57,123 nt of DNA from Eubacterium sp. ER2 (GTDB lineage Bacteria; Bacillota; Clostridia; Lachnospirales; Lachnospiraceae): positions 1-57,123 of the forward strand of contig NZ_JPJE01000041.1 in NCBI RefSeq assembly GCF_000765215.1, given 5' to 3'. A model generated the notes under the pieces. It saw nothing but the letters and a program-made list of their open reading frames with translations, had not been told where the DNA came from and ran no database searches. Made by a program: the position numbers and the translations under genes. Shown one piece after another: positions 22,000 through 51,623 of this stretch (position 1 is its first letter; each line of letters opens with the position of its first letter).

Positions 22000-22244
22000 A
22001 AGTACTCTCCATCCTCTCCATATGGAAAAATCCCGATCCTATATTCTGCATCTTCGTTGAACACAGGAACGAGATTATATGATGCCAGGGGCAAAATATC
22101 CGAGCCCACATGAGCTTGCTCATAGTGGGTGAATGATCTTGGGCCCCGCCCCGATATGAGCATAAAAGTGGGATGTATATCCCGCGATATGCGAATATTG
22201 GGTAGGATTGCGAAAGTGCGCAGCACAGAACAATCCACAGGCAT
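21987..22244 (-). CDS. Possible small ORF or gene remnant between kinase and exporter
   Basis: An 85-residue frame (MPVDCSVLRTF..., ending EDGEYLWVV) fills the unusually long gap between the HprK-like gene and the exporter. Its composition reads like protein (SYNLVPVFNEDAEYRIGIFP) and its stop overlaps the exporter start. There is no clear ribosome site and no recognised family. Module 2 has no counterpart in this position, only a stem-loop. It may be a remnant of an inserted gene. Confidence 0.35.
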   Translation of the reverse strand: MPVDCSVLRTFAILPNIRISRDIHPTFMLISGRGPRSFTHYEQAHVGSDILPLASYNLVPVFNEDAEYRIGIFPYGEDGEYLWVV

Positions 22245-22297
22245 CGTATTTGGGATCCCAACACCATTTTATTTTTCCGAAAAATTATAACCCAGGC

Positions 22298-23083
22298 TCA
22301 AAGCGCCCTGCCAAACACCGTCCTCTCCACCAGCTCCACGGCCCCCTCATCCGGCCGGCAGGAGAGTTCGTAGACGGGCAGTGCTGACAAAAGATGATCC
22401 AGCGTCTCCAGGCACAGCTCCATGCCACCCTCCAGCCAGCGCGGGTAAAAGACGCTCTCAGAGACCGCAGTTACCTTCTCAAACCCGGTCAGCTCCCGGA
22501 TGGAATTCTCCGGAGCCTGCTTTAGGACGATCAACGCCTCTACCGGAACATTGGTGTTCTCACAGTAGGGAGAAGAGCCGTGCCAGGGCGTGCCCCAGCC
22601 GAGGAATGTCTCCTCGGTCTCCTGAACAAAGACCACGTCTCCATTGATGATCAGCGCATCCCGGTATCTGTTCCACAGCTCCGCCTGGGTGGTCTTGCCG
22701 ATGCCAGAGGGGCCAAGAAACATGAGACCTCTCCCCTGGTGATCGATAAGTGAACTGTGGAGGTAGATGATATGTCGCTGGACAGCGTGAGTGTAGAAAA
22801 ACTGACAAAGAAAGCTATTCAAATTATCTTGATGCTCTAAAGGCAATATCGCCGCTGTTTTCCATATTTTATCAATAACCATGACATCATTATTCTTACG
22901 GATAATCTGTCCTAAATCCATCTTTATTTCATATGCTTCAAGACCATGAAACACTATCTCTTTTGAAAGTAAATATATTCTAAACTCACTTTCTTTTCTA
23001 CTTTCTTTAAACTTGTCCCATTGACTGCCTCTCTGTTTTCCTTGTATTTGCAATAGAATATTAATTATAGAGAATACATCCAA
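22298..23083 (-). CDS. HprK-like serine kinase of module 1
   Basis: 261 residues. The C-terminal half carries a P-loop GPSGIGKTT (residues 124-132), NGDVVFV and PWHGSSPY, the fold of HPr kinase/phosphorylase. It lacks HPr kinase's N-terminal domain sequence. Relatives (PadeK-type) phosphorylate the C-terminus of RiPP precursor peptides, and HprK-related kinases accompany PqqD-like proteins and nucleotidyltransferases near polysaccharide loci. The gene starts six bases after the small peptide gene, whose last codons (ATAGGAGGATAG) supply the ribosome site. The 5' half of the gene is clearly more AT-rich than the 3' half, and residues 1-108 do not align with the module 2 paralogue although the rest is mostly identical. 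Confidence 0.8.
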   Translation of the reverse strand: MDVFSIINILLQIQGKQRGSQWDKFKESRKESEFRIYLLSKEIVFHGLEAYEIKMDLGQIIRKNNDVMVIDKIWKTAAILPLEHQDNLNSFLCQFFYTHAVQRHIIYLHSSLIDHQGRGLMFLGPSGIGKTTQAELWNRYRDALIINGDVVFVQETEETFLGWGTPWHGSSPYCENTNVPVEALIVLKQAPENSIRELTGFEKVTAVSESVFYPRWLEGGMELCLETLDHLLSALPVYELSCRPDEGAVELVERTVFGRAL

Positions 23084-23089
23084 ACAATA

Positions 23090-23332
23090 CTATCCTCCTA
23101 TGATTGTCGCACATCCCAACTGTGCTGCCGTTAGGGCAAACGTTGCTCTTTTTACTTGCCCAGCTTGACTTTGATCTGCATTCCACGAATTAAAATAATA
23201 ATTCAAATGTCCATCCGAAAAGGCCCTTCGTGCTATGTCTTCATCGTCCTCTACTCCATAAAATGGGGAGTTAGGATCATCGGTATACCAACCATTGTTC
23301 CCTGTTATTCCCCCAGTATAACTATATTGCAA
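23090..23332 (-). CDS. Candidate modified-peptide precursor of module 1 (possibly 5'-truncated)
   Basis: 80-residue frame beginning at a TTG (23332), rich in Asn, Asp and Tyr, ending QLGCATIIGG. It shares a TGGIT motif and a GC-x-T-x-G type C-terminus with the 113-residue protein in the same place in module 2, but lacks about 40 N-terminal residues. The start is doubtful: the AGGAGAGG site lies 16 bases before this TTG and is properly spaced only for another TTG whose frame stops after five codons. The true start may therefore be damaged. The position directly before the HprK-like kinase suggests it is the kinase substrate. No known precursor family recognised. Confidence 0.5.
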   Translation of the reverse strand: MQYSYTGGITGNNGWYTDDPNSPFYGVEDDEDIARRAFSDGHLNYYFNSWNADQSQAGQVKRATFALTAAQLGCATIIGG

Positions 23333-23493
23333 TATTCAAGTTGCTCTACCTCTCCTAAATATTATACACTCGCAAAATTTCCTCTTCTATTACCAATTAT
23401 CCCATATTTTGGCCGTTTGTCCCAATTTTTTCAATATTTATGTTTTATTTTTATGGTGACCTAATCTCTATATAAATATAGATTTTCAGGCAA

Positions 23494-37779: not shown

Positions 37780-37835
37780 AAAAAAACTGCCAGGGATACT
37801 GTGTCTGCTGTTATAGTAACACATCTCCCTGACAG
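37780..37835 (-). terminator. Terminator of module 2
   Basis: In the minus direction CTGTCAGGGA and TCCCTGGCAG form a 10-bp stem around a 29-base loop that can itself pair (GTGT/ACAC), followed by TTTTTTTG. It lies 35 bases after the phosphatase stop. Confidence 0.7.
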
Positions 37836-37869
37836 TCTCTATAGGAATTTTATATCATCTCAGTTCCGG

Positions 37870-38601
37870 TCATCTCTGTTCAGAGCCCCGGTCTTTCAAT
37901 ATCCTCGCAGGCGTCCTCCACAGAAGATCCAGGGCGGCCTCCCGCCCGTACTTCAGCTCTACCAGCTCCCTGACCTCCCTCAGGTCCGGCGTGCGGAGCA
38001 CCGGGTCGTGGGCGTCCGAAGCGACGAGCCCCGCCAGCCCCCGGCTGAGTATCCAGTCCGCGGTCCGGCCGGCCCGGCCTCCAAAGTCCCCCAGCAGGCT
38101 CCCCTTGTTGACCTGCAAGAGCAGCCTCTCTCCGGCGATCTCCCGGAGGCATCCCGGATCTCGCTGGACAAAATCATATCTCTCCGGGTGGGCTAAGATC
38201 ACCTGATACCCCTGACGATCCAAAAACTCCAGCCGCTTCCTGGCCCGAGCCTGCGGGATGTCAAAGACAAACTCCGCAAGGATCCAGTTCCCGCCGCGCA
38301 GCCCGGGCAGGCGGTGCCTTTCCGCGTAACGGAGGGTCTCCCCGGTCAGGAGGATCTCCATCCCGCCGGCCAGCTTCAACCGGATCCCGGCCAGGCGGAC
38401 CTCCCGGCGCAGCATGGCCAGCCTCTTTCGGTAGTCCCGCAGGCAAGCCCCTGGATCCCCCTGCGCAAGATTGCCGTGGGACGTAGCCGCAAGGATAGTC
38501 ACACCGCTGTCCGCAGCCATCCTCGCCATCTCCAGAGCGTCCTCCATGCTGCGGGCCCCGTCGTCAAATCCCGGCACGATATGAGAGTGCAGGTCTATCA
38601 T
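37870..38601 (-). CDS. CpsB-type PHP phosphotyrosine phosphatase of module 2
   Basis: 243 residues with the N-terminal metal motifs MIDLHSHIVPGFDDGAR, then ATSHGN (Ser in place of the usual Pro), GGMEILLTGE, VILAHPERYD, QVNKGSLLGDFG and VASDAHDPV. It should reverse autophosphorylation of the two preceding kinases. The ATG overlaps the kinase stop as ATGA. Last gene of module 2. Confidence 0.9.
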   Translation of the reverse strand: MIDLHSHIVPGFDDGARSMEDALEMARMAADSGVTILAATSHGNLAQGDPGACLRDYRKRLAMLRREVRLAGIRLKLAGGMEILLTGETLRYAERHRLPGLRGGNWILAEFVFDIPQARARKRLEFLDRQGYQVILAHPERYDFVQRDPGCLREIAGERLLLQVNKGSLLGDFGGRAGRTADWILSRGLAGLVASDAHDPVLRTPDLREVRELVELKYGREAALDLLWRTPARILKDRGSEQR

Positions 38602-40076
38602 ATAGCTTCTCCCTCTTCCTGTTTCTGCTGATATTTTCCATAGCCGTATTTTCCGTAGCCATACTTTCCATACCCGTAGCCGTATCTGCCGTAGCCGTAG
38701 ACTCCCCCTGTCTCCGGGCAGTTATTGAACACATAGCCGGCAAAGGAGGCCCGGCGGCCGCTCAGAGACGACAGTCCTTCCCGTATCCGGTTCTGAGGGA
38801 CCGTATCATATCTTATCACATAGAGGATCAGGTCCGCGAACTCCGCCAAAAGGCCTGCATCCTGGAACATCTCGCAGGGCGGGCTGTCTAAGATCACATA
38901 GCTGAACCGCTGCCGCACCTCCTCAAAAAACACACGCAGCCCCTCATCCGTCAGGATAGCTGCCGGCTTTTCATATTTCCGCGTACTTCCCAGGAAATGG
39001 AGCCCGCTGTCTTTGATCCGCCTGATCACCGCCCTGGTCTCCTTCCCCTTCTCCGCCGCATCCTTCAGGTCGTACTTTCCCCTGATCCCGAGCAGGTCCG
39101 CATCTGACGGTTTCCTGAGATCCCCGTCTGCCAGCAGGACCTTCTTCCCGTCCGCTGCCAGCATCCGGGCCAGGTTCACCGCGACCGTAGACTTGCCCTC
39201 TCCCGCGGCCGTGCTGGTGACAAGGATCACCTTACAGCCCTCCCTGCCCGCCAGCCTTCCTATCCGCAGGCGGAGGGAGCGCATGCTCTCCCTGTAACCG
39301 TGAGGGGTCCTCTCATCCAGGACGGAGATACGCTGCTGTCCCTGATTCTTTCTGGCTTTTACCTGGAGATGCGGGAGCATGGCCAGGCATTTCAGGCTGG
39401 TCACTTTCTTCATCTCCTCCGGATCTCTTGCCGTCCTCCGGAACAGAGCCATCACTCCCAGGATACAGAGCGCCGCGAACGCACCGCCCGCTCCTCCAAA
39501 GGCCAGGCTCCTCTTCACGCTCATCTGGTTAAACGGGGCCGTCGGCACTTCCATCTCATCCAGCATATTGAACTGGATCTCCCCCAGCACAGACCGGGCC
39601 GTCTCCGGGTAGATCTCCAGCGCCGCCGACAGGATATCCGCCGCGTCCTGCGGATCCGGGCTCTCCGCCCGCATGGTGACCACATTGGAATCTGTGATCG
39701 TCTCCGCCGATATCGTCCCGTTCAGCTCATCCGTCCCCAGCTGATCCAGGAGCATGCTGCGGAAGTAGCTGCTCTCCAACACATAGGGGAACGTCTTTGA
39801 GAGCTGGTCGGCCGTCGTCTGGTCATAATAGAAGCTATAGCTTCCGCTGTCCTCATCTCCGGTAGCCACCGTGAACGTGGCGCTGCTCTGGTACAGGGGG
39901 GTCTTTCCCAGCCTCTGGTACAGCGTGAACCCGGCCGCCCCGATGGCCGCCAGGAGGACGACCGCCCACCAGAACCTCAGCAGGAGCTTCCACATCCCCC
40001 AGATCAGCCGCCCCAGGTCGATCTCTATCTCATCTTCTGTTTTTTCTATCCTGATATCCTGTCTCTGGTCTGCCAT
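38598..40076 (-). CDS. Wzz-fused BY-kinase, second kinase of module 2
   Basis: 492 residues from the ATG at 40076 (AGAGGTAG site). Wzz domain with helices near residues 35-55 and 205-225, then kinase domain: Walker A STAAGEGKST, Walker A' KVLLADGDLRKP, Walker B YVILDSPPCE, and a C-terminal Tyr/Gly tail (YGYGRYGYGYGKYGYG). Same architecture and order as 16432-17931. Predicted to autophosphorylate and to control polymer length or export of the peptide-linked system. Confidence 0.9.
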   Translation of the reverse strand: MADQRQDIRIEKTEDEIEIDLGRLIWGMWKLLLRFWWAVVLLAAIGAAGFTLYQRLGKTPLYQSSATFTVATGDEDSGSYSFYYDQTTADQLSKTFPYVLESSYFRSMLLDQLGTDELNGTISAETITDSNVVTMRAESPDPQDAADILSAALEIYPETARSVLGEIQFNMLDEMEVPTAPFNQMSVKRSLAFGGAGGAFAALCILGVMALFRRTARDPEEMKKVTSLKCLAMLPHLQVKARKNQGQQRISVLDERTPHGYRESMRSLRLRIGRLAGREGCKVILVTSTAAGEGKSTVAVNLARMLAADGKKVLLADGDLRKPSDADLLGIRGKYDLKDAAEKGKETRAVIRRIKDSGLHFLGSTRKYEKPAAILTDEGLRVFFEEVRQRFSYVILDSPPCEMFQDAGLLAEFADLILYVIRYDTVPQNRIREGLSSLSGRRASFAGYVFNNCPETGGVYGYGRYGYGYGKYGYGKYGYGKYQQKQEEGEAI

Positions 40077-40093
40077 ATCACTACCTCTTTCGC

Positions 40094-41509
40094 CTAGCCG
40101 TTTTTCTCCAAAGTCCTCTCCCGGTCCGCCTGGTACCCGCCATAGCCATAGCCGCCGTAACCTCCCTCGTCTGCTGTCCGCAGCCACTCCCTGTGGAAGG
40201 CATTTAAGATAAATCCGGCGAAATCTTTCCCGCTCTGCCATATCATGTCAACCGTGTCGTTGATCGTCCTGACGTCCGCGCCGTCCTCCCTCACCACAAG
40301 GAGCACGGAATCCACCACATTGATCCAGACTTCCGCGTCCGAGGACACGGCCATGGGAGAACAGTCCACGATCACATAGTCCATCCGGCTCTTCCAGCTC
40401 TCCAGCAGCGCCGGGAGCCTGCCGACGTCCAGGAGCTTCGTCGTATCCTTTACGCTCTTAAACTGGAACAGTTCAAAGATCCGGTACTTCCCGCTGTACC
40501 AGAGCGCGTCTGACGGCTCCGCCTTCCCCGCCAGCACGTCCGACAGCGCCGCCCGGTCCCCCTTCCTCTCCTCAAAGATCTTGTGCATGGCAGGCTTCAG
40601 CAGGTCCCCGTCGACCAGGAGCACTTTCCGGTGCTTCTCCGCCATGGCCAGGGCCAGATTGGCCGCCACTGTTGATTTGCCCTCATTTTCCATCACGCTG
40701 GTGACCAGGAGGACCTTCGCCGCTTTTTTTCGCAGGTGGTACTCCACCCGGGCCTCAGCCCGCCTGGAACTCTCCGCGAATCCCATGGTCACCAGAGGGG
40801 ACTCCAGAAGGATGGACTGCTTATCCTCTGCTCTCCTGCCTCTCTTTCTCTCAAAGGGGATGATACCCCGCACCTTCCCGTCCAGCTGCCTCTCTCCTCC
40901 CGCCGGCGTCTTCACCGTAAACCGCAGGAGATAGAACAGGACCACGATCCCCGCCATGGCCGCCATCGCCAGCAGCACGAGGATCGCCCGCCAGGACATG
41001 ACCCACGAGGTGTTGGACGGTTCCGTGGGCACCTGGGGCTCCTGCACGATCTGCAGGGATGAGTTGGCAAATACGTCCCCGGCCACATCCTCGTAATTGC
41101 GCAGCGCGGAGATCAGATACAGGTACGCCTCCCTCGGGCTTTCGCTGGTCGCCGATAATGTCATCAGGTTCGTCTCTGTGACAGGCGAGCAGGCGATCTG
41201 GCCGGAAATATCCTCCCCGGTATCCTCTCCGATCCGCGCCCGCAGGGCGTCGCTTGCGAACACCTGGCTGAAGACGTCCGCCATATCCGAGGCCAGTGAC
41301 AGGGACGAATACGTATTTTCCTCTCCCTTCAGGCTCACCACCAGGGTAGAGGAAGACGTGTATTCCGGCTGATAGGTCAGGTTATGCCAGCCGGTGGCGA
41401 GAAAGAACATGGAAACCCCTGCCATCAGGATCATCCAGAGCTTTCCCAGGAGCTCCATGCAGAGCCCGCGCACGCTGATCTCATCCAGTCTGAACAACTC
41501 CCGTCCCAT
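40094..41509 (-). CDS. Wzz-fused BY-kinase-like protein, first kinase of module 2
   Basis: 471 residues starting MGRELFRLDEISVRG behind AAGGAGG. Wzz region with helices near 20-40 and 170-195, then an ATPase domain with an altered P-loop: SVMENEGKST, where the usual first Gly of GEGKS is Asn. Walker A' is VLLVDGDLLKP and Walker B VIVDCSPMAV, where DTPP is usual. A Tyr cluster (YGGYGYGGY) is present near the end. The atypical motifs, shared in part by the module 1 copy (GENEGKSS), suggest a regulatory or weakly active partner of the second kinase. Confidence 0.87.
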   Translation of the reverse strand: MGRELFRLDEISVRGLCMELLGKLWMILMAGVSMFFLATGWHNLTYQPEYTSSSTLVVSLKGEENTYSSLSLASDMADVFSQVFASDALRARIGEDTGEDISGQIACSPVTETNLMTLSATSESPREAYLYLISALRNYEDVAGDVFANSSLQIVQEPQVPTEPSNTSWVMSWRAILVLLAMAAMAGIVVLFYLLRFTVKTPAGGERQLDGKVRGIIPFERKRGRRAEDKQSILLESPLVTMGFAESSRRAEARVEYHLRKKAAKVLLVTSVMENEGKSTVAANLALAMAEKHRKVLLVDGDLLKPAMHKIFEERKGDRAALSDVLAGKAEPSDALWYSGKYRIFELFQFKSVKDTTKLLDVGRLPALLESWKSRMDYVIVDCSPMAVSSDAEVWINVVDSVLLVVREDGADVRTINDTVDMIWQSGKDFAGFILNAFHREWLRTADEGGYGGYGYGGYQADRERTLEKNG

Positions 41510-41510
41510 C

Positions 41511-42344
41511 CTACTCGCCTCCTTCCACGATCACGGTCAGCCAGGTCTCCCCCGTATTTCCGGCGGCGTCAGCGGCCTGGTAATGGATCTCGTAACACCC
41601 CGGCGTGTTCACGTCCACGCCCGACTCGATGGAAACAGTCCCCGGATCCAGCGCGTTACCCGCCGAGTCCGTCACACCCGCCACGTAGGAGGCCGGGTCG
41701 ATGGACTCCCCTGCGGTCAGATACACGATCCCGCCCGTCAGCGCAATCCGCACATTCCTGTTCTGGGCATTCACCACATGGACCGGCAGGGCCGCCGAGG
41801 CGGTGTCGCCGAAACTGTTGGTGACCTCCACAGATACGGTGTAATTTCCCACTGAAGAATAGTTTACATCCGTATCCGTCTGGACGATCCACTCCGTCCT
41901 GCTGCCGTCCAGCTGGTCCTCCGCGCCCAGCCGCGCCATGGTCTCCGTATAGGACCCTTCTCCCTCCGCAAATACCAGAGGTTCTGTCAGGGTAAACCTG
42001 GGGCCGTGATAATCGGTAAAACGGACCTCCCTGGTAAGGGAGGCGCTCTGCCCCGCGGAGTCGAAGACCACATAGGTCAGGTCGGCGACGCCTGCCTCCG
42101 TAAAACGGGAGAAAGCTCCCGCCACGATCTGGTCCGTCAGGTCCCCGTCCTGCTCATCGGAGGCGCTCACGCCCTCCATCAGCTGTTCCATGGTATATGC
42201 ACAGGGGATCTCCAGCACATCCCGGTCGCTGACGATCTCGGGCGCGTCCGGGTCCCTGCCCTTAAGCTCCAGTATCTCCGATACGCCGAACAGAGCGGCG
42301 GACAATATAAACACGACCATCAGTCCTATCTTTACCAGTCTCAT
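41511..42344 (-). CDS. Membrane-anchored Ig-like (DUF5011-type) protein of module 2
   Basis: 277 residues with an N-terminal signal-anchor helix (about 5-24) and three beta-sandwich repeats marked by DEQDGDLTDQ, YVVFDSAGQSAS, YTVSVEVTNSFGD and YVAGVTDSAGNALD, ending TWLTVIVEGGE. Extracytoplasmic. It starts 22 bases after the exporter stop (GGAGGG site) and ends one base from the kinase start, a position conserved with module 1. Probably senses or scaffolds at the cell surface. Confidence 0.85.
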   Translation of the reverse strand: MRLVKIGLMVVFILSAALFGVSEILELKGRDPDAPEIVSDRDVLEIPCAYTMEQLMEGVSASDEQDGDLTDQIVAGAFSRFTEAGVADLTYVVFDSAGQSASLTREVRFTDYHGPRFTLTEPLVFAEGEGSYTETMARLGAEDQLDGSRTEWIVQTDTDVNYSSVGNYTVSVEVTNSFGDTASAALPVHVVNAQNRNVRIALTGGIVYLTAGESIDPASYVAGVTDSAGNALDPGTVSIESGVDVNTPGCYEIHYQAADAAGNTGETWLTVIVEGGE

Positions 42345-42366
42345 CTATACCCTCCAAAACATGAAA

Positions 42367-44127
42367 TCAAAATTCTTCCAGGAACCTGCGGATGCCCTCT
42401 TCATCCACTTCTTCCAGCCTCTGTCCGCCCACCTTGTACACCCGGCTGCACATGGAAAAGACGCTGGGCCGGTGGGCCGCCACGATGACCGTGCGGTTGG
42501 GTTCTTTCTTAATGATCTGCCGCAGCACCCGCCGCTCCGTCGCCACATCCAGGGCGCTGGTGGCCTCGTCGAGGATCATCACCGGCGCGTCCGCAAGGAG
42601 GGCTCTCGCAATGGACAGCCGCTGCTTCTGCCCCTCGGAAAACCGGGTGCCCCGCTCCCTCACTTCCGTGTCCATGCCCTGGTCCAGCTTCTCCACAAAC
42701 TCCCAGGCGCAGGCCGCCTCCAGGGCCTCCCGGATCTCCTCATCCGTGGCCTCCGGCTTCACCATCCGCATGTTATCCGCAATGGTGCCGGAAAACATGG
42801 TATTTCCCTGGGGGATGTAGCTGAACATGCACCGGGTGGAAGAGGAAGCCCGCAGCTCCTTTCCGCCCGGATTGCCCACCCGGACGCACCCCTTCCGGGG
42901 ATGGTAGAGCCCCAGCACCAGGTTCAGGGTCGTGGTCTTGCCCTGGCCGGAAGGCCCGATGAGGGCCACGATCTCCCCCGGCTCCGCCCGGAAGGAGGCG
43001 TCCTGGTAGATCCAGTCCTCCTCCTCATACGCGAAGCTCACATCCTCCATATGGACATACACGCCGCTCTCCTGTCCTTTCCGTCGGATCTCATCCGCCT
43101 CCTCCTTATCCTCCATGGAATCTCTGGGAAGGCTGGTGATCTCCATGATCCGCTCCGCGCTGATGCCGGAGCGGATCACCATGGGCAGCAAACCCAGTAT
43201 GCCGCTGAAAGACCCCCGCAGGGAACCAGCCATGGACACGAACATGGTCATGGTGCCGTAGCTGATCTCCCCCTGCCACAGGCGGAAGGCGGCGAAGCCA
43301 TAGCAGGCGTATCCCACTGCCTGCCCCACCAGGGAGGTGGCGATGGTCATGGACTGCTGGAACCGGTTCTGCTCCAGCGCCAGATCCACCGACTCCCTCT
43401 GGATCTTGTGGAACTTCTCCGTCACCCGGTCGATCATGCCAAAGGCCTTGATAAACTGCAGGTTCTGGAAAGTCTCCTGGTCGAACACGGTGCGGTCGCT
43501 GGCCACATTCTGGTTGTCCCGCTGGAACTGTCGCATCTTCCTGGCCGAATACCGGGAGGTGAGGAAAGAGACGGGCGCTCCCATGAGGGCGATCAGCGCC
43601 ATCCAGGGGTCATGCTGCACTACGATGATGAAGGCTCCCCCGAAACTGATGACCGTTGTCACCACATTGGGGAGAAACGTCAGGATGGTGTTGGCCACCA
43701 TGCCCGCGTCCCCGTTGACCCGGTAGAGAAGATCGCCGGAGCGGTACTTGGCCAGAGACTCCCAGTTGGTCCGAAGCACCTGCTCATAGATGTCCCCCCG
43801 GATCTCATTGGTGACTTTCAGCCGCACCTTCAGGGACAGCCGGGACTTCACCGCATTGATGAAGATCTGGGACACGCCCACGCCCACATAAGTACCCGCC
43901 ACCCGGACGATCTCCATGGAGTTCACCCCGGTGATGGCGTCCACCAGGTCCTTGCTGACCACCGAGGTCCCAAGCCCCAGCACGGAACCGGAGGCCCCCA
44001 GCAGGATGTAGACGCCGATGAGCAGCCAGTAGCGGCGCACATAGGCGTACATCCACAGCACTTCGCCCATGATCTGCTTCAGCCGTCCCTCTTTAATTCT
44101 CTGTATGTAATGCCTCACAGAAGCCAT
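42367..44127 (-). CDS. ABC exporter (fused permease-ATPase) of module 2
   Basis: 586 residues: a short N-terminal cytoplasmic helix, six membrane helices (to about residue 310) and an ATPase domain with Walker A GPSGQGKTTT, signature FSEGQKQRLSIARAL, Walker B MILDEATSALD and H-loop AAHRPS. It is a homodimer-type exporter without a C39 peptidase domain, so it would not itself cleave a leader. Position after the peptide and HprK-like genes makes a modified peptide the likely cargo; lipid or oligosaccharide export is the alternative. A stem-loop precedes it in the gap 44150-44205. Confidence 0.9.
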   Translation of the reverse strand: MASVRHYIQRIKEGRLKQIMGEVLWMYAYVRRYWLLIGVYILLGASGSVLGLGTSVVSKDLVDAITGVNSMEIVRVAGTYVGVGVSQIFINAVKSRLSLKVRLKVTNEIRGDIYEQVLRTNWESLAKYRSGDLLYRVNGDAGMVANTILTFLPNVVTTVISFGGAFIIVVQHDPWMALIALMGAPVSFLTSRYSARKMRQFQRDNQNVASDRTVFDQETFQNLQFIKAFGMIDRVTEKFHKIQRESVDLALEQNRFQQSMTIATSLVGQAVGYACYGFAAFRLWQGEISYGTMTMFVSMAGSLRGSFSGILGLLPMVIRSGISAERIMEITSLPRDSMEDKEEADEIRRKGQESGVYVHMEDVSFAYEEEDWIYQDASFRAEPGEIVALIGPSGQGKTTTLNLVLGLYHPRKGCVRVGNPGGKELRASSSTRCMFSYIPQGNTMFSGTIADNMRMVKPEATDEEIREALEAACAWEFVEKLDQGMDTEVRERGTRFSEGQKQRLSIARALLADAPVMILDEATSALDVATERRVLRQIIKKEPNRTVIVAAHRPSVFSMCSRVYKVGGQRLEEVDEEGIRRFLEEF

Positions 44128-44241
44128 ATCCTATGTAACTCCCCTTAAAATGCAAAACCTCACTCCCATATCCCTCCGCCAAACGCGGGAATACGGGAAT
44201 GAGATTCCCCCTCTTGCTTCTCTTTTCACTTGTATCTGTAT

Positions 44242-45027
44242 CTACACGCTGCCGCCGAACACCGCTTCCTCTGTCAGCCGGACAGCCTCCTCGTCCGGAC
44301 GGCAGGAAAGTTCGTAGACAGGCACAGTCCACAGTAAGGCGTCCAGTGTCTTACAGGCAGCCTCATGTCCCTCCTTGTACCAGGTAGGGAAAAATACACT
44401 GTTCATTACCTCAGAAACCATCTCAAAGCCTGTCAGTCTGCGAATCGAATTTTCAGGACTTTGCTTCAGGATCACCAGCGCCGCCAGTGGTACCTGCCTG
44501 TTCAGACAATAGGGTGAAGATCCGTGCCACGGAGATCCGCAGCCAAGAAAACCATCCTCTTCCTGTTTGACAAACACCATATCCCCATTAATGATCTCGG
44601 CATTTCGGTATTTCATCCACAGTTCAGCCTGCGTTGTTTTCCCAATGCCGGAAGGACCAAGAAACATCATGCCTCTTCCAGATATATCAATCAGGGAGGC
44701 ATGCATTTCTATAGCATGTCGAGTAGATAAATGGGTAAGTATCAATACATTAAGAATCTTATAAACATCAAACTTATTTCCATCAAAAGATGTCACCTTG
44801 GCTCTCGTCCAATCATCATCAACGCCAAGTATACATTCGTTTAATCTCAATATGTTTTTTCCCGGTTGCTCGTCTAAAACTGCAATCCCGTTCTGATAAT
44901 TTTTACACGAAACAATATGTATTTCCAGATCAGATTTACCCTTAGCATTCTGACAAAAAGAAGCCCATTCAGACCATAATTGGTATTCGGACTTTATGGT
45001 TATACTACTTAGGAATTTGTATTCCAT
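44242..45027 (-). CDS. HprK-like serine kinase of module 2
   Basis: 261 residues, the same length as the module 1 copy. Catalytic half: MFLGPSGIGKTTQAELW (P-loop residues 124-132), IINGDMVFV, GSPWHGSSPY, and a shared PVYELSCRPDE near the end. Residues 1-108 are AT-rich in codons and do not align with the paralogue. It starts one base after the peptide gene stop. By analogy with PadeK-type kinases it may phosphorylate Ser/Thr of that peptide, possibly the Thr near its C-terminus. Confidence 0.82.
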   Translation of the reverse strand: MEYKFLSSITIKSEYQLWSEWASFCQNAKGKSDLEIHIVSCKNYQNGIAVLDEQPGKNILRLNECILGVDDDWTRAKVTSFDGNKFDVYKILNVLILTHLSTRHAIEMHASLIDISGRGMMFLGPSGIGKTTQAELWMKYRNAEIINGDMVFVKQEEDGFLGCGSPWHGSSPYCLNRQVPLAALVILKQSPENSIRRLTGFEMVSEVMNSVFFPTWYKEGHEAACKTLDALLWTVPVYELSCRPDEEAVRLTEEAVFGGSV

Positions 45028-45028
45028 C

Positions 45029-45370
45029 TTAACCCACAGTTACGCATCCGTAATAATGGTTGCGAAACGATCCCCAAGCGTCTTTATCTATACTATTCAA
45101 TAATGCTGTAACTTGGTGATATATTATCTCATTAATCTGGGTTTTCTTATCTTCATCAGATAAAGATGAATTTCCTAAAATAGTAGTTATTTTTTCATCA
45201 TTATTAAACTCGGCCCAATCCCCCATTCGTGTTATGCCACCTGTACTATTCCAATATACCTTTATATATGTTTGATGTTCACCTGGAAAATCCGTCGATT
45301 CTCCTGAAAACCCTATATCATCATTAAGTGCCATTGTTACAACTTCACCATTAATTTCTTCGTAAGGCAT
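45029..45370 (-). CDS. Candidate precursor/substrate peptide of module 2
   Basis: 113 residues with an excellent AAGGAGG site (MPYEEINGEVVTM). Acidic, Asn/Thr-rich, with WNSTGGITRMGDW in the middle and a short Cys-containing C-terminus YYGCVTVG. It has only one Cys, so it is not a ranthipeptide-like Cys-rich precursor. It lies between the radical SAM gene and the HprK-like gene, the classic location of a RiPP precursor, and shares TGGIT and the GC-x-T-x-G ending with the module 1 peptide. Not a family I recognise; it might instead be a small chaperone or carrier protein. Confidence 0.6.
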   Translation of the reverse strand: MPYEEINGEVVTMALNDDIGFSGESTDFPGEHQTYIKVYWNSTGGITRMGDWAEFNNDEKITTILGNSSLSDEDKKTQINEIIYHQVTALLNSIDKDAWGSFRNHYYGCVTVG

Positions 45371-45396
45371 TTTAATCCTCCTTTATCACAATCAGT

Positions 45397-46431
45397 CTAT
45401 TTTAATAACTGAAATATCTTTTTACAATAAACATCTTTCACTTTACCAATTCCACCATTATTGCAGGCCAAAGTTGCTATACATCTTCTACATTTATCTT
45501 TTATTTCACATGTATAACATTTTTCCGGCCACCGGATACTTTCACTATACTCCTGCAAAGTTTTCCAGTTTTCTTCAAAACTTTCTTCCAGTGCATCAAT
45601 TTCGGGTCTATTCAAGAATAAGCAGAACCTCATATATCCATCCCATGTAATAACATAGCCAGTTCGGTAAAGATCACAGTATTCACATGGCTTTTTCTCT
45701 GCCTTAAAAACTGGATTCTCATTCCATTCTTTTGATACTTCCCGAGAGCACCCAAGATCGTATGCACTCAAAGCACATTCCCTCACATCTGTATCAGCAC
45801 CTCGCAATGAAGGATAACAGCATGTACTGTAATACCATGCATAATGATGTTGCAAAGCATATCTAAATATATGATCCTTGTCCTCAACATTCTGCTTCAC
45901 AAAGGTTGTCACCAGCTGAATGGGTATCTTTAACTCTCGCAGTTTCCGAATCCCCTCATCTACCCTTGTGAATCCCTGCTCAACCTGGCAGACTTCCCGA
46001 TATACCTCATCATTGGAGCCATAAAGGGTAATCTTTGCTTCATGGGGCGGATACTCATAAAAAAGCTCTTCTACTTTCTCCGTTATGGAATAAGCATTTG
46101 TCTGCAGAGTAATCCGGAATCCCATTTGGGCTAATGCTCTCCAGATAGTTTCAAATTCCGGATGCAGCAGCGGATCTCCGCCAGTGATACATAAGGAAAA
46201 TACTCCTGCTTTCTGCGCCTGTTCTCCCATTCGGACCCACTCTTTGGCGGTCAGTTCTCTTCCTCTACCAACCTTTGGAATTTCATCCGGCTGAAGATGT
46301 ACATAGCACATACGGCAATTCATTCCGCATCTCGGAGTCAGTTCAAAGGTCGCCTGGATCGGACGACACTCCTCAAACGCCTTTTCCTTTATCTGTTGAA
46401 ACAGGCCCTTTCTTTTCCCCGGCTCAGTCAT
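45397..46431 (-). CDS. Radical SAM/SPASM peptide-modifying enzyme
   Basis: 344 residues. The radical SAM cluster motif is C35-G-M-N-C39-R-M-C42 (LTPRCGMNCRMCY), followed by ITGGDPLLHPEF. The C-terminal SPASM domain shows the cysteine series CEYC, WDGYMRFC, CYTC, CRRC, LAC and VYC, ligands for auxiliary Fe-S clusters. SPASM enzymes of this size (PqqE, AlbA, and others) modify ribosomal peptides and usually need a PqqD-like chaperone, here encoded directly upstream with an 8-base overlap. Predicted substrate: the adjacent 113-residue protein. Chemistry unknown. Codon use is more AT-rich than the kinase genes downstream. Confidence 0.9.
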   Translation of the reverse strand: MTEPGKRKGLFQQIKEKAFEECRPIQATFELTPRCGMNCRMCYVHLQPDEIPKVGRGRELTAKEWVRMGEQAQKAGVFSLCITGGDPLLHPEFETIWRALAQMGFRITLQTNAYSITEKVEELFYEYPPHEAKITLYGSNDEVYREVCQVEQGFTRVDEGIRKLRELKIPIQLVTTFVKQNVEDKDHIFRYALQHHYAWYYSTCCYPSLRGADTDVRECALSAYDLGCSREVSKEWNENPVFKAEKKPCEYCDLYRTGYVITWDGYMRFCLFLNRPEIDALEESFEENWKTLQEYSESIRWPEKCYTCEIKDKCRRCIATLACNNGGIGKVKDVYCKKIFQLLK

Positions 46432-46780
46432 GATGCTTCTGCTCCTGCAGTTTCTTTTTCTCCCGTTCTGTCAGCTGAAGCTTGACTGTTCCCAGAATTG
46501 GTTCCGGTTTTCCGGACTCTAACATGAAATTGTTGTCCAGAAGTTCAATAAACTTATGTATATCGTTCCGAAGCCGTTTTTCTGTCACATCTGTATACTC
46601 CTGCAATGCCCTGGCTACAAGAGAATCTTCTGTAAACTCCCCTTCTTCCATCACTTTCCAGATGAATGAGGCCGTGGAACTGATATGCATTGGCTGACAG
46701 ATCTGTGAAAGCCTGCCGACAGGCATAACCAGATATTGTCCGGCTATCTCCCGCAGGATCAGTCCGTCTTTTAGCTTCAC
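46424..46780 (-). CDS. PqqD-like peptide chaperone
   Basis: About 118 residues. The fold marks of PqqD are present: GLILREIAGQYLVMPVG, SSTASFIWKVMEEGEF, and a helical ALQEYTDVTEKRLRNDIHKFIELL. PqqD proteins bind leader peptides and present them to a radical SAM enzyme. A basic 30-residue C-terminal extension (LTEREKKKLQEQKHH) follows. I place the start at the GTG at 46780, ten bases after AAGGGGAG; the open frame runs to a GTG at 46825 without a ribosome site. First gene of module 2. The 220 bases upstream carry only short hairpins. Confidence 0.82.
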   Translation of the reverse strand: MKLKDGLILREIAGQYLVMPVGRLSQICQPMHISSTASFIWKVMEEGEFTEDSLVARALQEYTDVTEKRLRNDIHKFIELLDNNFMLESGKPEPILGTVKLQLTEREKKKLQEQKHHD

Positions 46781-47041
46781 CCTTATCACGCTCCCCTTAT
46801 CTTGTGCACATCCAGCAATTTTCACACTATATTATGTACCTTGGAAATGCCGCGCCTGCAAGGGCTGCCGCAAAAGAGCATAGTGTCCTCCAGGTTCATA
46901 ATGCATATAGTATATATGTCCCTATGTTACCGAACCGTTACCGGCACCACAAATCACTGGAAGTGCCAAAAGGCACATTCCGGGATTGTAAGCGGTCGCC
47001 AGGGGCTCGGACAAGCCCGGACTTTGGCTCGTCGCCAATAC

Positions 47042-47090
47042 AAAAAAACAGGCCCGCCCGGGATCCTTTCCGATCCCCGGGAGAGCCTGT
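47042..47090 (-). terminator. Terminator between the decayed surface protein gene and module 2
   Basis: Arms ACAGGC...CCGGGATC and GATCCCCGGG...GCCTGT form a long, slightly imperfect stem, followed on the minus strand by TTTTTTTG. It insulates module 2 from the genes upstream. Confidence 0.85.
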
Positions 47091-47752: not shown

Positions 47753-48562
47753 CTATCCCTGCATTTCTTCCGCAAAATTCTCCAGTCTCGCGCCGGTCTC
47801 CTCCGCCCAGGAGTACTCCTCCAGGTAGCTGCCGCTGATCTGCCAGGCGCGCAGCGCGTCCCGGTTTCCCTGCAGAAATTCATAATAGTCGCAGTCCATC
47901 TGCCGCACATCGATCTGGCAGGCTCCCCGGCTGCCGGAAAAAAGCGCCTCCGCGCCGTGCTCCGCCAGCACCTGCCGGATCTGCATGACCGCCTTGCGGT
48001 ACAGGTTTTTGACCCGGTCGTCGTAGGCCCGGTTCTCCCACAGCTTGTCCACCGCCTCCTCAATGGTGACGGCGCCGCCCCGGTGATCCACGCACAGAGC
48101 CAGCAGCTCCTTGGCCTTGGCGTTGGGGAAATACACCGCCTCCCCGTCGATAAACACATCAAACCGGCCGAAGGTGCGCGCGTAGACCCGCTTTTTCTGC
48201 CGCGCGGCAAGAAGCCTCGCCCGCTCCAGGGCCTCTGTGATGTCCTGCTTATTGTAGGGCTTGGTCAGGTAGTAGTCCGCCTTCACCTTCAGGGCGTCCA
48301 GGGTGTACTGCTCGTAGCCCGTCAGGAAGATCACCACCAGGTCCGGCCGGATCTCCCGCAGCTTCTCCGCCAGGGCAAGGCCGTTCATCCCCGGCATGGC
48401 AATATCCAGGAAGGCCGCCTCCACCGGGTGCTCCTGCACGTACGCCAGGGCATCCACAGGATTGGTAAATGCCCCCGCCACCTCGACGCCCGGCATGTCT
48501 TCTGTCTCCATCTCAAACTGGCGCAGGGCCAGCCTCTCATCATCCACGATTATGACTCGCAT
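47753..48562 (-). CDS. Response regulator with SARP-like winged-helix output domain
   Basis: 269 residues. The receiver domain (MRVIIVDDERLALRQ, phosphoacceptor Asp in AAFLDIAMPGMNG, Lys in YYLTKPYNK) is followed by a winged-helix output domain from about residue 130: YARTFGRFDVFIDGEAVYFPN, AKAKELLALCVDHRGGAV, TIEEAVDKLWEN, the layout of SARP/OmpR-like regulators. The gene overlaps the histidine kinase gene by 13 bases and has AAAGGAAG before the ATG. Likely controls nearby envelope genes; targets unknown. Confidence 0.9.
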   Translation of the reverse strand: MRVIIVDDERLALRQFEMETEDMPGVEVAGAFTNPVDALAYVQEHPVEAAFLDIAMPGMNGLALAEKLREIRPDLVVIFLTGYEQYTLDALKVKADYYLTKPYNKQDITEALERARLLAARQKKRVYARTFGRFDVFIDGEAVYFPNAKAKELLALCVDHRGGAVTIEEAVDKLWENRAYDDRVKNLYRKAVMQIRQVLAEHGAEALFSGSRGACQIDVRQMDCDYYEFLQGNRDALRAWQISGSYLEEYSWAEETGARLENFAEEMQG

Positions 48563-50361
48563 GTATCTTCGCTTCCTTTCTCTGCCGTGCCTTCTGTCTT
48601 CGGAAATCTGACTGTCACCAGGGTCCCCTTCCCCGGCCGGCTTGCAACCGCAAGGGAACCGCCGGCCAGCTCCTCCACCCGGAACCGGATGTTGGCAAGG
48701 CCGATGTGGGTGTATTTATGTTCCGCCCCGCCCCAGGCCTGCCTCTGCTCCAGCTCTTCCGGGTCAAAGCCCACGCCGTCGTCCTCTACTTCCACCACGT
48801 AGGCATCCGCCTCCTCCCGGCTGCGGATCGTCACCGTGCCGCCCTCCACCCGGGTGCAGATGCCGTGCTTCACTGCATTTTCCACCAGGGGCTGCACCGA
48901 CAGGGGCGGCACCAGGAAGCTCTTCGCCCGGATATCCGTCGCCACCTGCAGCCGCTCCTCAAACCGGATCTTCTCGATGTTGAGATAGGCCTCGATGTGG
49001 CGCAGTTCCCGGGAAAAGGGGATCTGGGCCTCTGCGCCCATGTTATCCAGATTGGATCTTAAATAGGTGGAAAAATCATACACCGTCTGCTGCGCTTTGT
49101 CCGGGTCCACCTTGATCAGCGTCCGGATCGAGTTCAGCGCATTGTAGATAAAATGGGGTTTGATCTGGCTGGCCATCAGCTCCGCCCGGCTCATCTTAAG
49201 CAGGCGGGTCAGCTCCTTGTTATCCCGCACTTTCTGCATAAATGTGGTGAGGATGATCCGCAGCTGGTTCAGGGCGTACAGAAGGATTGCCAGGCGGCCG
49301 GCAAACCCGATCCGCTCCGCGCTTCCGTAGGTCCCCGCCGCGTCCGCCACCGTCACAGCCACCGCGATCACAAGGCATGCCAGCTCGGACCGGATATGGT
49401 CGCCTTCCTTCCGCCTCACCGCCGCAATGTGGACCGCCAGAGCGTACAGAAGAGACGCGCCCGCTGCCACCGCCGTCACCGGCCCCAGGGTCACAAGGTC
49501 CGGGCCGCCGGCCAGACTGGACAGAAGGGCCGCCGCCGCGTACGCGAGAGTCAGGTAAAAGAGCCCCTTCGTCCCTTTTCCCCAGATCCCCGGCCATCTC
49601 TCATAGAGGTAGGCCGCAAGAAACGCCGGAAAGGCAAGGGCCGACAGAGCCGAGAAATAATACCAGGCCTCCAGCCCCACCATGCCGGACGGAAGCCCCG
49701 CTCCCCCGGCCAGCCAGAAGGCCAGGCACAAAAGCATGATCCCCAGGTTCTTGTGCCAGCTGTACAGCCGGTACCGCCTGCCAAGGAGCGAGATCAGAAG
49801 GATCACGACGCCGGACAGGCCGATCAGGGAGCTGGCTCTGGAGAGCTTCGTCTGTTTGGAAATGATGGTTGTCACCATGTCGTCAAAGTCGCCGTAAAAG
49901 ACCTGGCCGATGGCACCGCCGCAGAAGCGGTACGGCGAACGGATCACAATCCGGATCTCTTTCCCTGCGTCCTCAGGGCCAAGCCGCACAAAATTCCAGG
50001 CGTTGGTGATCTTCACGCCTATGAGTTTCTCCTCCGGGAACTCATAGGCCAGCCGGTCCCCCACATACACCCGGACGTACTGCATCCGCGTGCGGAACAC
50101 GACCGCAGAATCTTCGTCCGCATCCGCCGGGATCTTTTTCGTGTATTCTACTTCCGCGCCCCGGGGCACATCCAGCTTCGCCGGCAGCGGGCCCGCGCCT
50201 TCCATCTGTCCGCACCGGTAGGTCCAGTCCCCGCCGAACACTTCCATCTGCCTGCTGCTGAAGAGGTCCTGCCGGGTGGCAAAGAGAAGGAGCAGCAGGA
50301 ATGCGGCCAGCAAAAGCGCCGCCACGCCCCCGGATATCCATTGTATTTTTCTGTCTTTCAT
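48550..50361 (-). CDS. LytS-like sensor histidine kinase with 7-TM sensory module
   Basis: 603 residues from the ATG at 50361 (CAGGAGAA site); 51 further open codons upstream are rejected. One N-terminal helix, an extracellular beta-rich domain of about 150 residues (FGGDWTYRCG, VYVGDRLAYEF; 7TMR-DISM-like), then seven membrane helices. The cytoplasmic part is a His_kinase (PF06580-type) domain with the phosphoacceptor His in QIKPHFIYNALN and a HATPase domain with VENAVKHGIC, VEDDGVGFD and HIGLANIRFR. Signal unknown; carbohydrate-like ligands are common for this sensor type. Confidence 0.92.
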   Translation of the reverse strand: MKDRKIQWISGGVAALLLAAFLLLLLFATRQDLFSSRQMEVFGGDWTYRCGQMEGAGPLPAKLDVPRGAEVEYTKKIPADADEDSAVVFRTRMQYVRVYVGDRLAYEFPEEKLIGVKITNAWNFVRLGPEDAGKEIRIVIRSPYRFCGGAIGQVFYGDFDDMVTTIISKQTKLSRASSLIGLSGVVILLISLLGRRYRLYSWHKNLGIMLLCLAFWLAGGAGLPSGMVGLEAWYYFSALSALAFPAFLAAYLYERWPGIWGKGTKGLFYLTLAYAAAALLSSLAGGPDLVTLGPVTAVAAGASLLYALAVHIAAVRRKEGDHIRSELACLVIAVAVTVADAAGTYGSAERIGFAGRLAILLYALNQLRIILTTFMQKVRDNKELTRLLKMSRAELMASQIKPHFIYNALNSIRTLIKVDPDKAQQTVYDFSTYLRSNLDNMGAEAQIPFSRELRHIEAYLNIEKIRFEERLQVATDIRAKSFLVPPLSVQPLVENAVKHGICTRVEGGTVTIRSREEADAYVVEVEDDGVGFDPEELEQRQAWGGAEHKYTHIGLANIRFRVEELAGGSLAVASRPGKGTLVTVRFPKTEGTAEKGSEDTCES

Positions 50362-50417
50362 GCTGTGTTCTCCTGTGTATCTGAATGAATAGGAAATGCT
50401 GCTTTTACAGGCCTCTT

Positions 50418-51623
50418 TTACAGGCCAATCTTTTTCAGCAGACGGTACTGCATCTTCGCCTCTTCCAGGCTCCCACTCCGGTCGATCCCCCGGAATGCCG
50501 CCCGGATCTTCCACCGGTTCGCAAGGCCGATCCGCCAGCGCTTCACCCAGGCGAGCGGCAGCAGCGCCGGATGCCGCTCCAGCGCGGGAAGGAAGTAGAT
50601 CATGTGCTTCTTCTTCGGGAAGGCGATCCGCCAGAGGGCTTTCGCCCGGATCAGGAACGACGCCTTTTCCGTCCGGCCGCTGATCCCGCTTCGCAGCCTG
50701 CGGATGCTTTCATCCCGCTCAAACCCGAAGATCCCACCCGTCATGATATAGTATTTCAGCTCTTCCAGCGTCCCCGGATCCACCTGTGAAACCGCCGGAT
50801 CTATCTGTTCCGGGATCCCGAACCACGCCCCGGAAGCCTGCAGGACGGTTGCTGCGAACCGGTCCATCCGAAGCTTCGCCAGCTGCTCCCGGATATAGCC
50901 CCAGTCCATCTGCTCCCGGTACGCTTTCAGGAAGAGCGCCAGATCCATCACCATCCGGATCCCTGCGCCGCTGCTGTTCAGATGCTTGGCCAGGTGAAAG
51001 CACAGGAAGACAAAATGATCCTCCGGCGAAAAGAAGCGTCTGCTCCCCTCCCCCGGGACCAGCCGGGAGAAGGCCCCCGCAAAATATCCCTCATAATCCA
51101 CCTTGTTCCAGTACGTGCCAAAGGCAAGCCTCCGGTGGACTTCATAGGAAAAGCGGTCCTTCTTCAACACCCACACAGCGCTTCCGCCCTCCTCTTTCCG
51201 GTAGCCCAGCTCCCGCAGGACCGCCGCCGTCCGCGCCATATCCTCATCTCTTACCAGCACGTCCACGTCCCCCATGGTGCGCAGTTCCGGCGTCGGATAG
51301 AGGTCCCGCAGCTCGCAGCCCTTGAAAAAGGCATAGGGCACCTGTGCCTCCTCCATCCGGGCGGCAAACGCCTTCACCTCTTCCTCCAGCAGCACAGAGC
51401 GGTACACGGTGGCCATGTAGACCTCCTGGAATGTCCGGTATACGTCCTCTTTTTTCTGCTCCTTCAAAACCGGCAGCAGCATCGCAGCCGCGATGCCGGC
51501 CACGTTGTGCTTCTGCGCCGTCTCGTACAGCGCCTCCAGGGAGACGTCCGGGAGGCAGCGCACGCTCCTTCCGTTCACGAAATCCGCCAGGATCTCCACT
51601 AATATCTGATCTTCTCGTCTCAT
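50418..51623 (-). CDS. Nucleotidyltransferase-family protein (NTP_transf_5-like)
   Basis: 401 residues. The core shows YAFFKGCELRDLYPTPELRTMGDVDVLV, here the KG...R.MGDxDxLV signature of this family, and later YEVHRRLAFG, FSPEDHFVFLCFHLAKH and GAGIRMVMDLALFL. Proteins of this type occur beside HprK-related kinases and PqqD-like proteins in polysaccharide loci and in some lasso-peptide loci, so it may be part of the module 2 pathway although the two-component genes separate them. Nucleotide and acceptor unknown. Start ATG 51623 with AAGAGTGG upstream. Confidence 0.82.
   Translation of the reverse strand: MRREDQILVEILADFVNGRSVRCLPDVSLEALYETAQKHNVAGIAAAMLLPVLKEQKKEDVYRTFQEVYMATVYRSVLLEEEVKAFAARMEEAQVPYAFFKGCELRDLYPTPELRTMGDVDVLVRDEDMARTAAVLRELGYRKEEGGSAVWVLKKDRFSYEVHRRLAFGTYWNKVDYEGYFAGAFSRLVPGEGSRRFFSPEDHFVFLCFHLAKHLNSSGAGIRMVMDLALFLKAYREQMDWGYIREQLAKLRMDRFAATVLQASGAWFGIPEQIDPAVSQVDPGTLEELKYYIMTGGIFGFERDESIRRLRSGISGRTEKASFLIRAKALWRIAFPKKKHMIYFLPALERHPALLPLAWVKRWRIGLANRWKIRAAFRGIDRSGSLEEAKMQYRLLKKIGL

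Follow-up and report, generated by a model that had tools for sequence, protein, structure and literature searches.

The locus and its gene products

The window analysed here is a 57,123-nucleotide stretch of DNA from Eubacterium sp. ER2 (Lachnospiraceae), namely, the entire contig NZ_JPJE01000041.1 of a 3.27-Mb genome. Between positions 46780 and 37870, its minus strand harbours nine genes that code for a PqqD-like protein, a radical S-adenosylmethionine (SAM) enzyme, a small peptide, an HprK-like kinase, an ABC exporter, an Ig-like protein, two fused Wzz-bacterial tyrosine kinases (BY-kinases) and a CpsB/CapC-type tyrosine phosphatase (Table 1). These genes fall into two evolutionary parts, a cassette (PqqD, radical SAM, peptide) and a chassis (ABC, Ig, two Wzz-BY-kinases, CpsB), with HprK as the hinge. 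The principal new finding of this work is that the peptide cassette is exchanged as a module.

All nine genes described in the initial annotation are open and intact at the positions given there, and the domains that it had named (PqqD, Radical_SAM, Hpr_kinase_C, ABC, Ig-like, Wzz/BY-kinases, CpsB_CapC) were recovered with Pfam and NCBIfam. The closing terminator, first placed at 37780-37835, folds well. Start sites were refined from the sequence for PqqD (GTG at 46780) and the second kinase (ATG at 40076). GC content is 33-47% across PqqD, radical SAM, the peptide and the first part of HprK, and about 60% from the ABC gene onward.

Table 1. Features of the window, in the direction of transcription of the minus strand, with the second copy of the locus in the last line
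Feature	Position	Strand	Evidence or remark
NTP_transf_5 nucleotidyltransferase	50418..51623	-	upstream, overlaps histidine kinase gene; Pfam PF14907, E 2e-46
Sensor histidine kinase	48550..50514	-	Pfam His_kinase, HATPase_c
Response regulator	47753..48562	-	Pfam Response_reg, E 4.5e-23
Terminator-like hairpin ahead of the cassette	~47040..47090	-	fold z -5.2
PqqD-like RiPP recognition element, GTG start	46424..46780	-	Pfam PqqD, E 2.5e-10
Radical SAM enzyme, C-terminal Cys cluster putatively of SPASM type	45397..46431	-	Radical_SAM, E 6.3e-24
113-aa peptide	45029..45370	-	G45 and C109 (window numbering) invariant in 55/55 homologues
HprK-like kinase	44242..45027	-	Hpr_kinase_C; alignments
Hairpin of 19 bp in the HprK-ABC gap, U-rich tail	44147..44211	-	covariation, z -6.2, model match 66.8 bits
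MsbA-like ABC exporter without peptidase domain	42367..44127	-	ABC_membrane and ABC_tran
Ig-like protein, hydrophobic N-terminus	41511..42344	-	Bact_surface_Ig-like, E 9.4e-22, 3 stretches
Wzz-BY-kinase 1, Tyr/Gly-rich C-terminus	40094..41509	-	Wzz and tyrosine-autokinase matches
Wzz-BY-kinase 2, Tyr/Gly-rich C-terminus	38598..40076	-	Wzz and tyrosine-autokinase matches
CpsB/CapC-type tyrosine phosphatase	37870..38601	-	PF19567, E 8.8e-46
Terminator hairpin ending the locus	37781..37840	-	fold z -5.7, T-run
Second, decayed locus copy	11584..23340	-	HprK-ABC-Ig-kinase-kinase-CpsB and SGNH hydrolase, order as in the main locus

With regard to the individual proteins, the HprK-like kinase matches Hpr_kinase_C at 28.6 bits (E 1.2e-6), short of the Pfam cut-off of 33.3, and its AlphaFold2 (AF2) model (pLDDT 94.9) retrieves PEPCK and HPrK/P in Foldseek at E 1e-6 to 1e-5, with TM-scores of 0.2-0.5. 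The Wzz scores of the two kinases (21.7 and 23.7 bits) are slightly below the Pfam cut-off of 25.5, and their eps_fam tyrosine-autokinase scores are 117 and 94.6 bits (cut-off 108). The exporter matches MsbA_rel (273.7 bits) and MsbA_lipidA (251.1 bits), both below the curated cut-offs. In the radical SAM enzyme, a CxxxCxxC site and a C-terminal Cys cluster are kept throughout the 14 rows of an alignment (A2), in which Cys 35, 39, 42, 148, 252, 270, 305, 308, 314 and 317 are invariant. The C-terminal cluster appears to be of the SPASM type; the best solved relative of the enzyme is SkfB (E 1.6e-22), followed by PqqE. The hydrophobic N-terminus of the Ig-like protein may act as an anchor.

Conservation of the locus

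Searching genome contigs with the kinase alignment A3 yielded 77 related loci, mostly in Lachnospiraceae-type genera, and also in Thomasclavelia, Faecalicoccus, Pseudoflavonifractor, Gemmiger and Olsenella. In 49 of them, referred to below as canonical loci, HprK is followed by the ABC, Ig and Wzz-BY-kinase genes, in strict order in 49/49. The radical SAM gene lies upstream in 41 canonical loci, the remaining eight being cut within 0.9 kb. A second kinase was recognised in 42 canonical loci and CpsB in 37; of the 12 without CpsB, 7 end at most 150 bases past the last kinase. Six further loci bearing Ig or BY-kinase genes (L100, L108, L113, L116, L120 and L128) are arranged otherwise, and in L100, L108, L113, L116 and L128 the gene order is permuted with the two parts still adjacent. 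Altogether, 55 of the 77 loci have an Ig or BY-kinase gene no more than 9.5 kb away from HprK; 11 of the other 22 are cut by contig ends and 11 lack such genes despite having room. The neighbourhood survey which the initial annotation had put forward as a check on a single system thus finds Ig and BY-kinase genes regularly near HprK, namely, in 55 of the 66 loci uncut by contig ends, with 11 lacking them.

Alignment A3 was built mostly from cassette members, which biases the selection of loci, and whole genomes were tested separately for this reason. Among 397 Lachnospiraceae genomes covering 334 genera (radical SAM at E up to 1e-40, Ig at E up to 1e-25), the radical SAM gene was found in 46, the Ig gene in 45 and both in 38, against an expectation of 5.2 (p 6e-38, Fisher). 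Within the closest clade, the Ig gene is present in 14 of the 15 radical SAM genomes, and all 14 Ig genomes have the radical SAM gene. In G105 and G141, the two parts co-occur though located on different contigs. We consider the two parts to belong to one system because of this co-occurrence (38 genomes versus 5.2), which also leads us to reject a chance neighbourhood. Of 371 Clostridia genomes, 14 carry the radical SAM gene and 7 the Ig gene; when 15 genomes of the same family are removed, the numbers are 12 and 5 out of 356, with both present in 3 (p 3e-4). Judging from neighbourhoods and genome co-occurrence, the peptide, HprK and radical SAM genes are not regularly separate from the kinase genes.

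Two parts that reassort

The nine genes had been viewed as one integrated locus. As regards a single system, this view stands on the counts given above; a single evolutionary block it is not, cassette and chassis being reassorted. Divergence was compared across those 27 loci, counting the window, in which six genes are intact; proteins with internal stops were dropped. It is correlated inside the cassette (PqqD-radical SAM 0.88, radical SAM-peptide 0.49, radical SAM-HprK C-part 0.71) and inside the chassis (ABC-Ig 0.67, Ig-first BY-kinase 0.79), and uncorrelated across the two parts, for radical SAM (Ig -0.05, p 0.62; ABC 0.15, p 0.12) as for the peptide (ABC 0.05, p 0.33; Ig -0.04; first BY-kinase 0.01). 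Of 17 supported splits in the radical SAM tree, 6 are contradicted by the HprK tree, the best agreement on the cassette side, and 14 by the ABC tree; between HprK and ABC, 15 of 17 supported splits are contradicted. Median pairwise identity is 0.23 for the peptide, 0.57 for radical SAM, 0.61 for ABC and 0.66 for PqqD, the latter two values having led us to drop the notion of ABC as the most conserved part. HprK itself is composite, with hypervariable residues 1-100 (about 44728-45027 in the window) and a conserved C-part (segment identities of 0.20 and 0.67, respectively). In 27/27 loci, the peptide region plus HprK N-part has a lower mean GC than the chassis, with a median difference of 0.16.

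The peptide cassette is exchanged between otherwise similar loci. L053 shares 95% DNA identity with the window in radical SAM and 97% in HprK; between L053 and L077, the ABC, Ig, both kinase and CpsB genes are 94-97% identical, and radical SAM and HprK just 55-60%. L061 and L062 provide a natural experiment, as it is in their peptide and kinase N-part that the two operons are most dissimilar. Per 100-bp bin, their identity is 86-100% in PqqD and radical SAM, drops to 23-57% in the peptide and HprK residues 1-100, and is 81-100% in the HprK C-part and ABC, except for a gap insertion (27%) and the last, cut bin. Eight pairs of loci show at least 88% ABC DNA identity. Seven are chassis-type pairs, three of which share members (L054, L069, L072). 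The peptide region, just upstream of HprK, is unlike in 5/5 comparable chassis-type pairs (0.49-0.56), one of which, L060 and the window, also has an unlike Ig gene (0.69), and the HprK N-part is unlike in 6/7 (0.49-0.66). The eighth pair, L110/L111 (no Ig, S26 type), is outside these five and alike throughout (upstream 0.94).

The HprK-ABC junction

The locus had also been described as one apparent operon. Uniform transcription is doubtful, since a hairpin lies between the two parts in the window and in 23 of the 49 canonical loci. In the window, it sits in the 114-nt gap between HprK and ABC. Its 19 bp are conserved in sequence and followed by a U-rich tail, and among 20 aligned sequences 11 of the 19 pairs have both partners changed with pairing retained. 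With a covariance model, the hairpin was recovered from this gap in 24 of the 77 loci (the 23 canonical ones included), as well as in the window and the decayed copy. Of the 24 loci, 18 had contributed to the alignment from which the model was built and the other 6 had not; apart from reverse-strand hits at these positions, the model gave a single further match, a weak one in L057 (27.9 bits). The 5' arm has one match in its own genome at up to 3 mismatches, and the hairpin is absent where HprK and ABC nearly touch (e.g., L058, L068, L089). From its position and structure, it could be an attenuator separating the expression levels of cassette and chassis.

A Clostridiales-1 RNA (RF01699) was observed in the HprK-ABC gap of the decayed copy (22080-22246) and of L062 (10748-10960), in opposite orientations relative to the genes. 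Seven loci, chosen mostly for their long gaps, were searched for it and only L062 contained it, so that it was discarded as a part of the system. It may be a mobile RNA element, and is treated here as an insertion, given its presence in only one of the loci searched and, oppositely oriented, in the decayed copy.

The peptide family

Alignment A4 comprises 55 peptides, drawn from the window and from 53 loci out of 77, with two contributed by L094. It leaves out seven loci cut at the peptide (L072, L082, L086, L091, L106, L117, L119), those with a short open reading frame (ORF) of a different kind (L100, L108, L113, L116, L124, L128) and ten without a recognised peptide (L096, L109-L111, L114, L120, L122, L126, L127, L129). 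Also left out is an ORF of L084 (326-832), in which the N-terminal half of the peptide is unrelated sequence, through either recombination or an assembly artefact.

The 55 peptides are 96-151 aa long. Besides the invariant Gly and Cys (Table 1), a Tyr and two Trp are found in at least 90% of them. Exactly one Cys is present in 44, and the last Cys invariably lies 2-10 residues from the C-terminus. The net charge is negative in 55/55, with a median of -11. An N-terminal Yxx[V/I/A]x[A/V/G/I/M] motif, never with P at the fourth position, occurs in 42; the window peptide starts with MPYEEINGEVV. This peptide has no Pfam match and a single chance match in NCBIfam (TreR, E 0.033), and the 55 peptides gave no convincing family, their few matches being weak (one in Pfam and three in NCBIfam, E 0.003-0.01) and confined to one member each. 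The AF2 prediction for the window peptide, made from a shallow alignment, is an alpha/beta model (pLDDT 77, pTM 0.67), which retrieved no PDB fold at E 0.001 or better. Between the window and L053, a single pair, the peptide has a dN of 0.080 for a dS of 0.084 (NG86), and HprK 0.015 and 0.086.

Relation to described systems

The initial annotation pointed to no described system with the full gene set. Among the titles and abstract starts listed by searches of the open-access PMC literature, we found none combining all of its elements, and no description of radical SAM, HprK and Ig/BY-kinase genes as one system; the claim has to be narrowed, since a part of the set is already held by the clusters of linear polyphosphorylated peptides (LPPs) of Bacilli, the closest described kind. 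According to Popov et al. 2026 (PMC13381572), LPP clusters comprise a recognition element (RRE) for ribosomally synthesised and post-translationally modified peptides (RiPPs), an HprK-like kinase, an NTP transferase and an MsbA-like exporter, and often lie within capsule loci. Their core includes a signal-peptidase-I-like leader peptidase, and their leaders a YxxPxVLxHQxIxFETxxS motif, [Y/W]xxP being the RRE motif of lasso and LPP leaders. The discrete RRE (PqqD in the window), the kinase, the NTP transferase and the exporter are all found in the present system, as are variable precursors and a patchy spread. However, two S26-type queries (E <=1e-4) detected no signal-peptidase-I-like leader peptidase in the six frames of the window or in the 49 canonical loci (0/49). 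YxxPxVLxHQ is likewise absent from the peptides, whose Yxx[V/I/A] seems to resemble [Y/W]xxP minus the Pro. Furthermore, neither 'radical SAM' nor 'PqqD' appears in the text of PMC13381572, whereas the present system combines a radical SAM enzyme with an acidic peptide, mostly containing a single Cys, and with an Ig/BY-kinase/CpsB chassis.

Peptide phosphorylation by HprK-like kinases is known from both lasso and LPP systems (PMC9266682; PMC13381572). For lasso-type peptides, PMC9266682 reports that a hexose on the phosphorylated residue requires PsmN, whose annotation is that of a nucleotidyltransferase, and LPP clusters have a kinase/nucleotidyltransferase pair like that of PsmK/PsmN systems (PMC13381572). 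The lasso peptides paeninodin and pseudomycoidin (PadeK, PsmK, PsmN) resemble the present system in having these two families act on a ribosomal peptide (PMC9266682), but no macrolactam cyclase or B2 protease was recognised by Pfam or NCBIfam among the nine proteins here. Sactipeptides share a SPASM-type radical SAM enzyme and a conserved Cys in the substrate, with SkfB as the best solved relative; yet SkfB is a distant relative, 44 of the 55 peptides here have a single Cys, and the cross-link is putative. The CpsBCD/Wzc capsule systems have in common a Wzz domain (here sub-threshold), a BY-kinase with a Tyr-rich tail and a CpsB phosphatase. They differ from the present locus, in which two fused Wzz-kinases and an Ig protein are coupled to a peptide cassette, none of the nine genes builds sugars, and a sugar transferase plus flippase are not found in the same locus. 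The role of capsule-associated, HprK-phosphorylated peptides is given as unknown by the LPP authors (PMC13381572, Discussion), and the variant described here connects a peptide of this kind with a defined chassis of kinases and phosphatase. Its carriers are gut bacteria, with several named strains such as Mediterraneibacter glycyrrhizinilyticus An427, Thomasclavelia saccharogumia DSM 17460, Catenibacillus scindens DSM 106146 and Blautia sp. An81.

In other Lachnospiraceae, 18-20-kb stretches (L160-L163) contain an S26-like protein, radical SAM, HprK (in multiple copies in some), ABC, CpsB, Ig and two BY-kinases. They likely constitute a second type, which may link the LPP kind and the present system.

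Proposed function and alternatives

The reading that we rank first, with a probability of about one half, is that of one coupled two-part system, in which a polymorphic peptide made by the cassette would be placed on the cell surface by the chassis along with polysaccharide. As we infer from the sequences, PqqD would present the peptide, and the radical SAM/SPASM enzyme would modify it, most likely by a cross-link at the invariant near-C-terminal Cys; a thioether is the best guess because the substrate has one invariant Cys. The HprK-like kinase would then phosphorylate the peptide, its specificity presumably residing in the N-part as the peptide-recognition part. NTP_transf_5 homologues are found in 26 of the 77 loci; there, as in the window, where the gene is separated from the cassette by the two-component genes and the terminator-like hairpin, a sugar or nucleotide would probably be added to the phosphate. 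The MsbA-like exporter would carry the product outside, and the Ig/Wzz-BY-kinase/CpsB machine would put it on the surface together with a polysaccharide whose sugar genes would mostly be elsewhere. The identity of the peptide would define the type, replaced by recombination in otherwise similar loci, often with the kinase N-part. The phosphotyrosine switch under which, according to the initial annotation, the modified peptide would be exported is a hypothetical element of this picture.

A typical capsule locus was set aside as a description of the window, as neither a PF02397 sugar transferase nor a PF01943 flippase is found on its contig; both are present on other contigs of the genome. Delivery of the peptide with a polysaccharide is favoured because sugar genes occur near some loci and in all 15 genomes of the closest clade. 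A sugar transferase (G067, G350) or a flippase (G035) lies within about 10 kb of cassette genes on the same contig, and a sugar transferase is found beside an Ig/BY-kinase unit in L171, and near one in L169, where the stretch examined has no RiPP genes. A more specific proposal, which we regard as tentative and rather doubtful, is peptide-based surface typing, whereby a cross-linked, phosphorylated, possibly glycosylated peptide would be mounted by the BY-kinase machine and the type switched via a short segment. This segment, holding the peptide gene and usually the kinase recognition part, would be swapped as sugar genes are in capsule loci. If true, BY-kinase machines would handle ribosomal peptides besides sugars, and gut Bacillota would possess a polymorphic peptide surface trait, of which no description was found in the open-access PMC literature.

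Several observations weigh against the surface reading and the division on which it builds. NTP_transf_5 is present in only 9 of the 23 canonical loci having long flanks. Of the ORFs flanking canonical loci, the scans covered 70 out of 91 on the downstream side and 74 out of 94 on the upstream side, with family counts taken among 25 of 66 and 25 of 50 families, respectively; on this basis, sugar genes are rare in these flanks, the downstream ORFs including at least four sugar-transferase and at least three glycosyltransferase matches. The sugar transferases and flippases of the 15 clade genomes are mostly on other contigs, and any link between them and the locus is putative. Five canonical loci lack CpsB despite not ending near the last kinase, and outside the family 9 of the 12 radical SAM genomes have no Ig gene. 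The AF2 prediction is of a mostly folded peptide, in contrast to a plain leader-core RiPP, and the peptides revealed no conserved phospho-acceptor. With regard to the two parts, the HprK C-part tracks ABC (0.55) as well as radical SAM (0.71), the HprK N-part tracks the peptide weakly (0.38), and the PqqD tree conflicts with every other tree, that of radical SAM included (15/21 supported splits). Finally, in L058 and L059 the peptide differs and the HprK N-part is alike (0.93), ruling out a joint switch of the two in every pair.

The surface reading is followed by one in which the peptide, once exported, would serve as a type-specific signal: the histidine kinase/response regulator pair next to the cassette would sense it and switch the expression of a surface polymer controlled by the tyrosine kinases. 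Of 30 canonical loci, 20 have a response regulator at most 3 kb upstream, and 0/23 have one downstream; LytTR and GHKL types occur, and the strong polymorphism of the peptides would fit specificity groups. However, sensor types vary among loci (at least 8 His_kinase and at least 8 GHKL among the 74 upstream ORFs), and neither the length of the peptides nor the largely folded prediction for that of the window is what this explanation would lead one to expect; we hold it to be unlikely, though ahead of the following ones.

A bacteriocin-like weapon with polymorphic killing specificity, the kinase part being a neighbour that aids export or self-protection, would account for the fast evolution of the peptide (as seen in the single pair compared above), the patchy distribution and the proximity of the radical SAM enzyme to SkfB. 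It leaves the tie to the Ig and BY-kinase genes unexplained, though, and is made improbable by the acidic nature of all 55 peptides and by the lack of any immunity gene recognised in the cassette with Pfam or NCBIfam. Still less credible is a peptide that remains intracellular and regulates the BY-kinases or the phosphatase directly, as a modified inhibitor or substrate: close co-occurrence with the Ig/BY-kinase genes would agree with it, but an exporter sits between the peptide and kinase genes, and peptide and chassis divergence are uncorrelated, unlike in an interacting pair. That two unrelated clusters adjoin by chance or at an insertion hot spot, as their independent divergence, the junction hairpin and the 11 loci lacking Ig/BY-kinase genes despite room might suggest, is very hard to reconcile with co-occurrence far above expectation, even across contigs (G105, G141), and with permuted orders that keep the parts adjacent.

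Other features of the window and related loci

The decayed copy of the locus has frameshifted ABC and first BY-kinase genes, and its CpsB, devoid of the N-terminus, is fused to an Ig part. It also holds the second BY-kinase, Ig, HprK, a peptide remnant and the hairpin (22020-22081); neither PqqD nor radical SAM is present. A third BY-kinase locus (23584-28256) codes for a CpsD-like kinase, CpsB, a secreted-looking protein, LCP, a sortase and Wzz, and no sugar genes were recognised there either.

S26-type HprK/ABC loci (L109, L110, L111, L114) lie near glycosyltransferase genes that look Pel-like (PelF/PelG). Between the response regulator and PqqD, positions 47126-47660 of the window contain a broken surface-protein-like gene with a signal-peptide-like start and a hydrophobic C-terminal tail. 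Further upstream, positions 52925-54987 encode a TPR/TIR-domain protein directly followed by a PP2C-like phosphatase.

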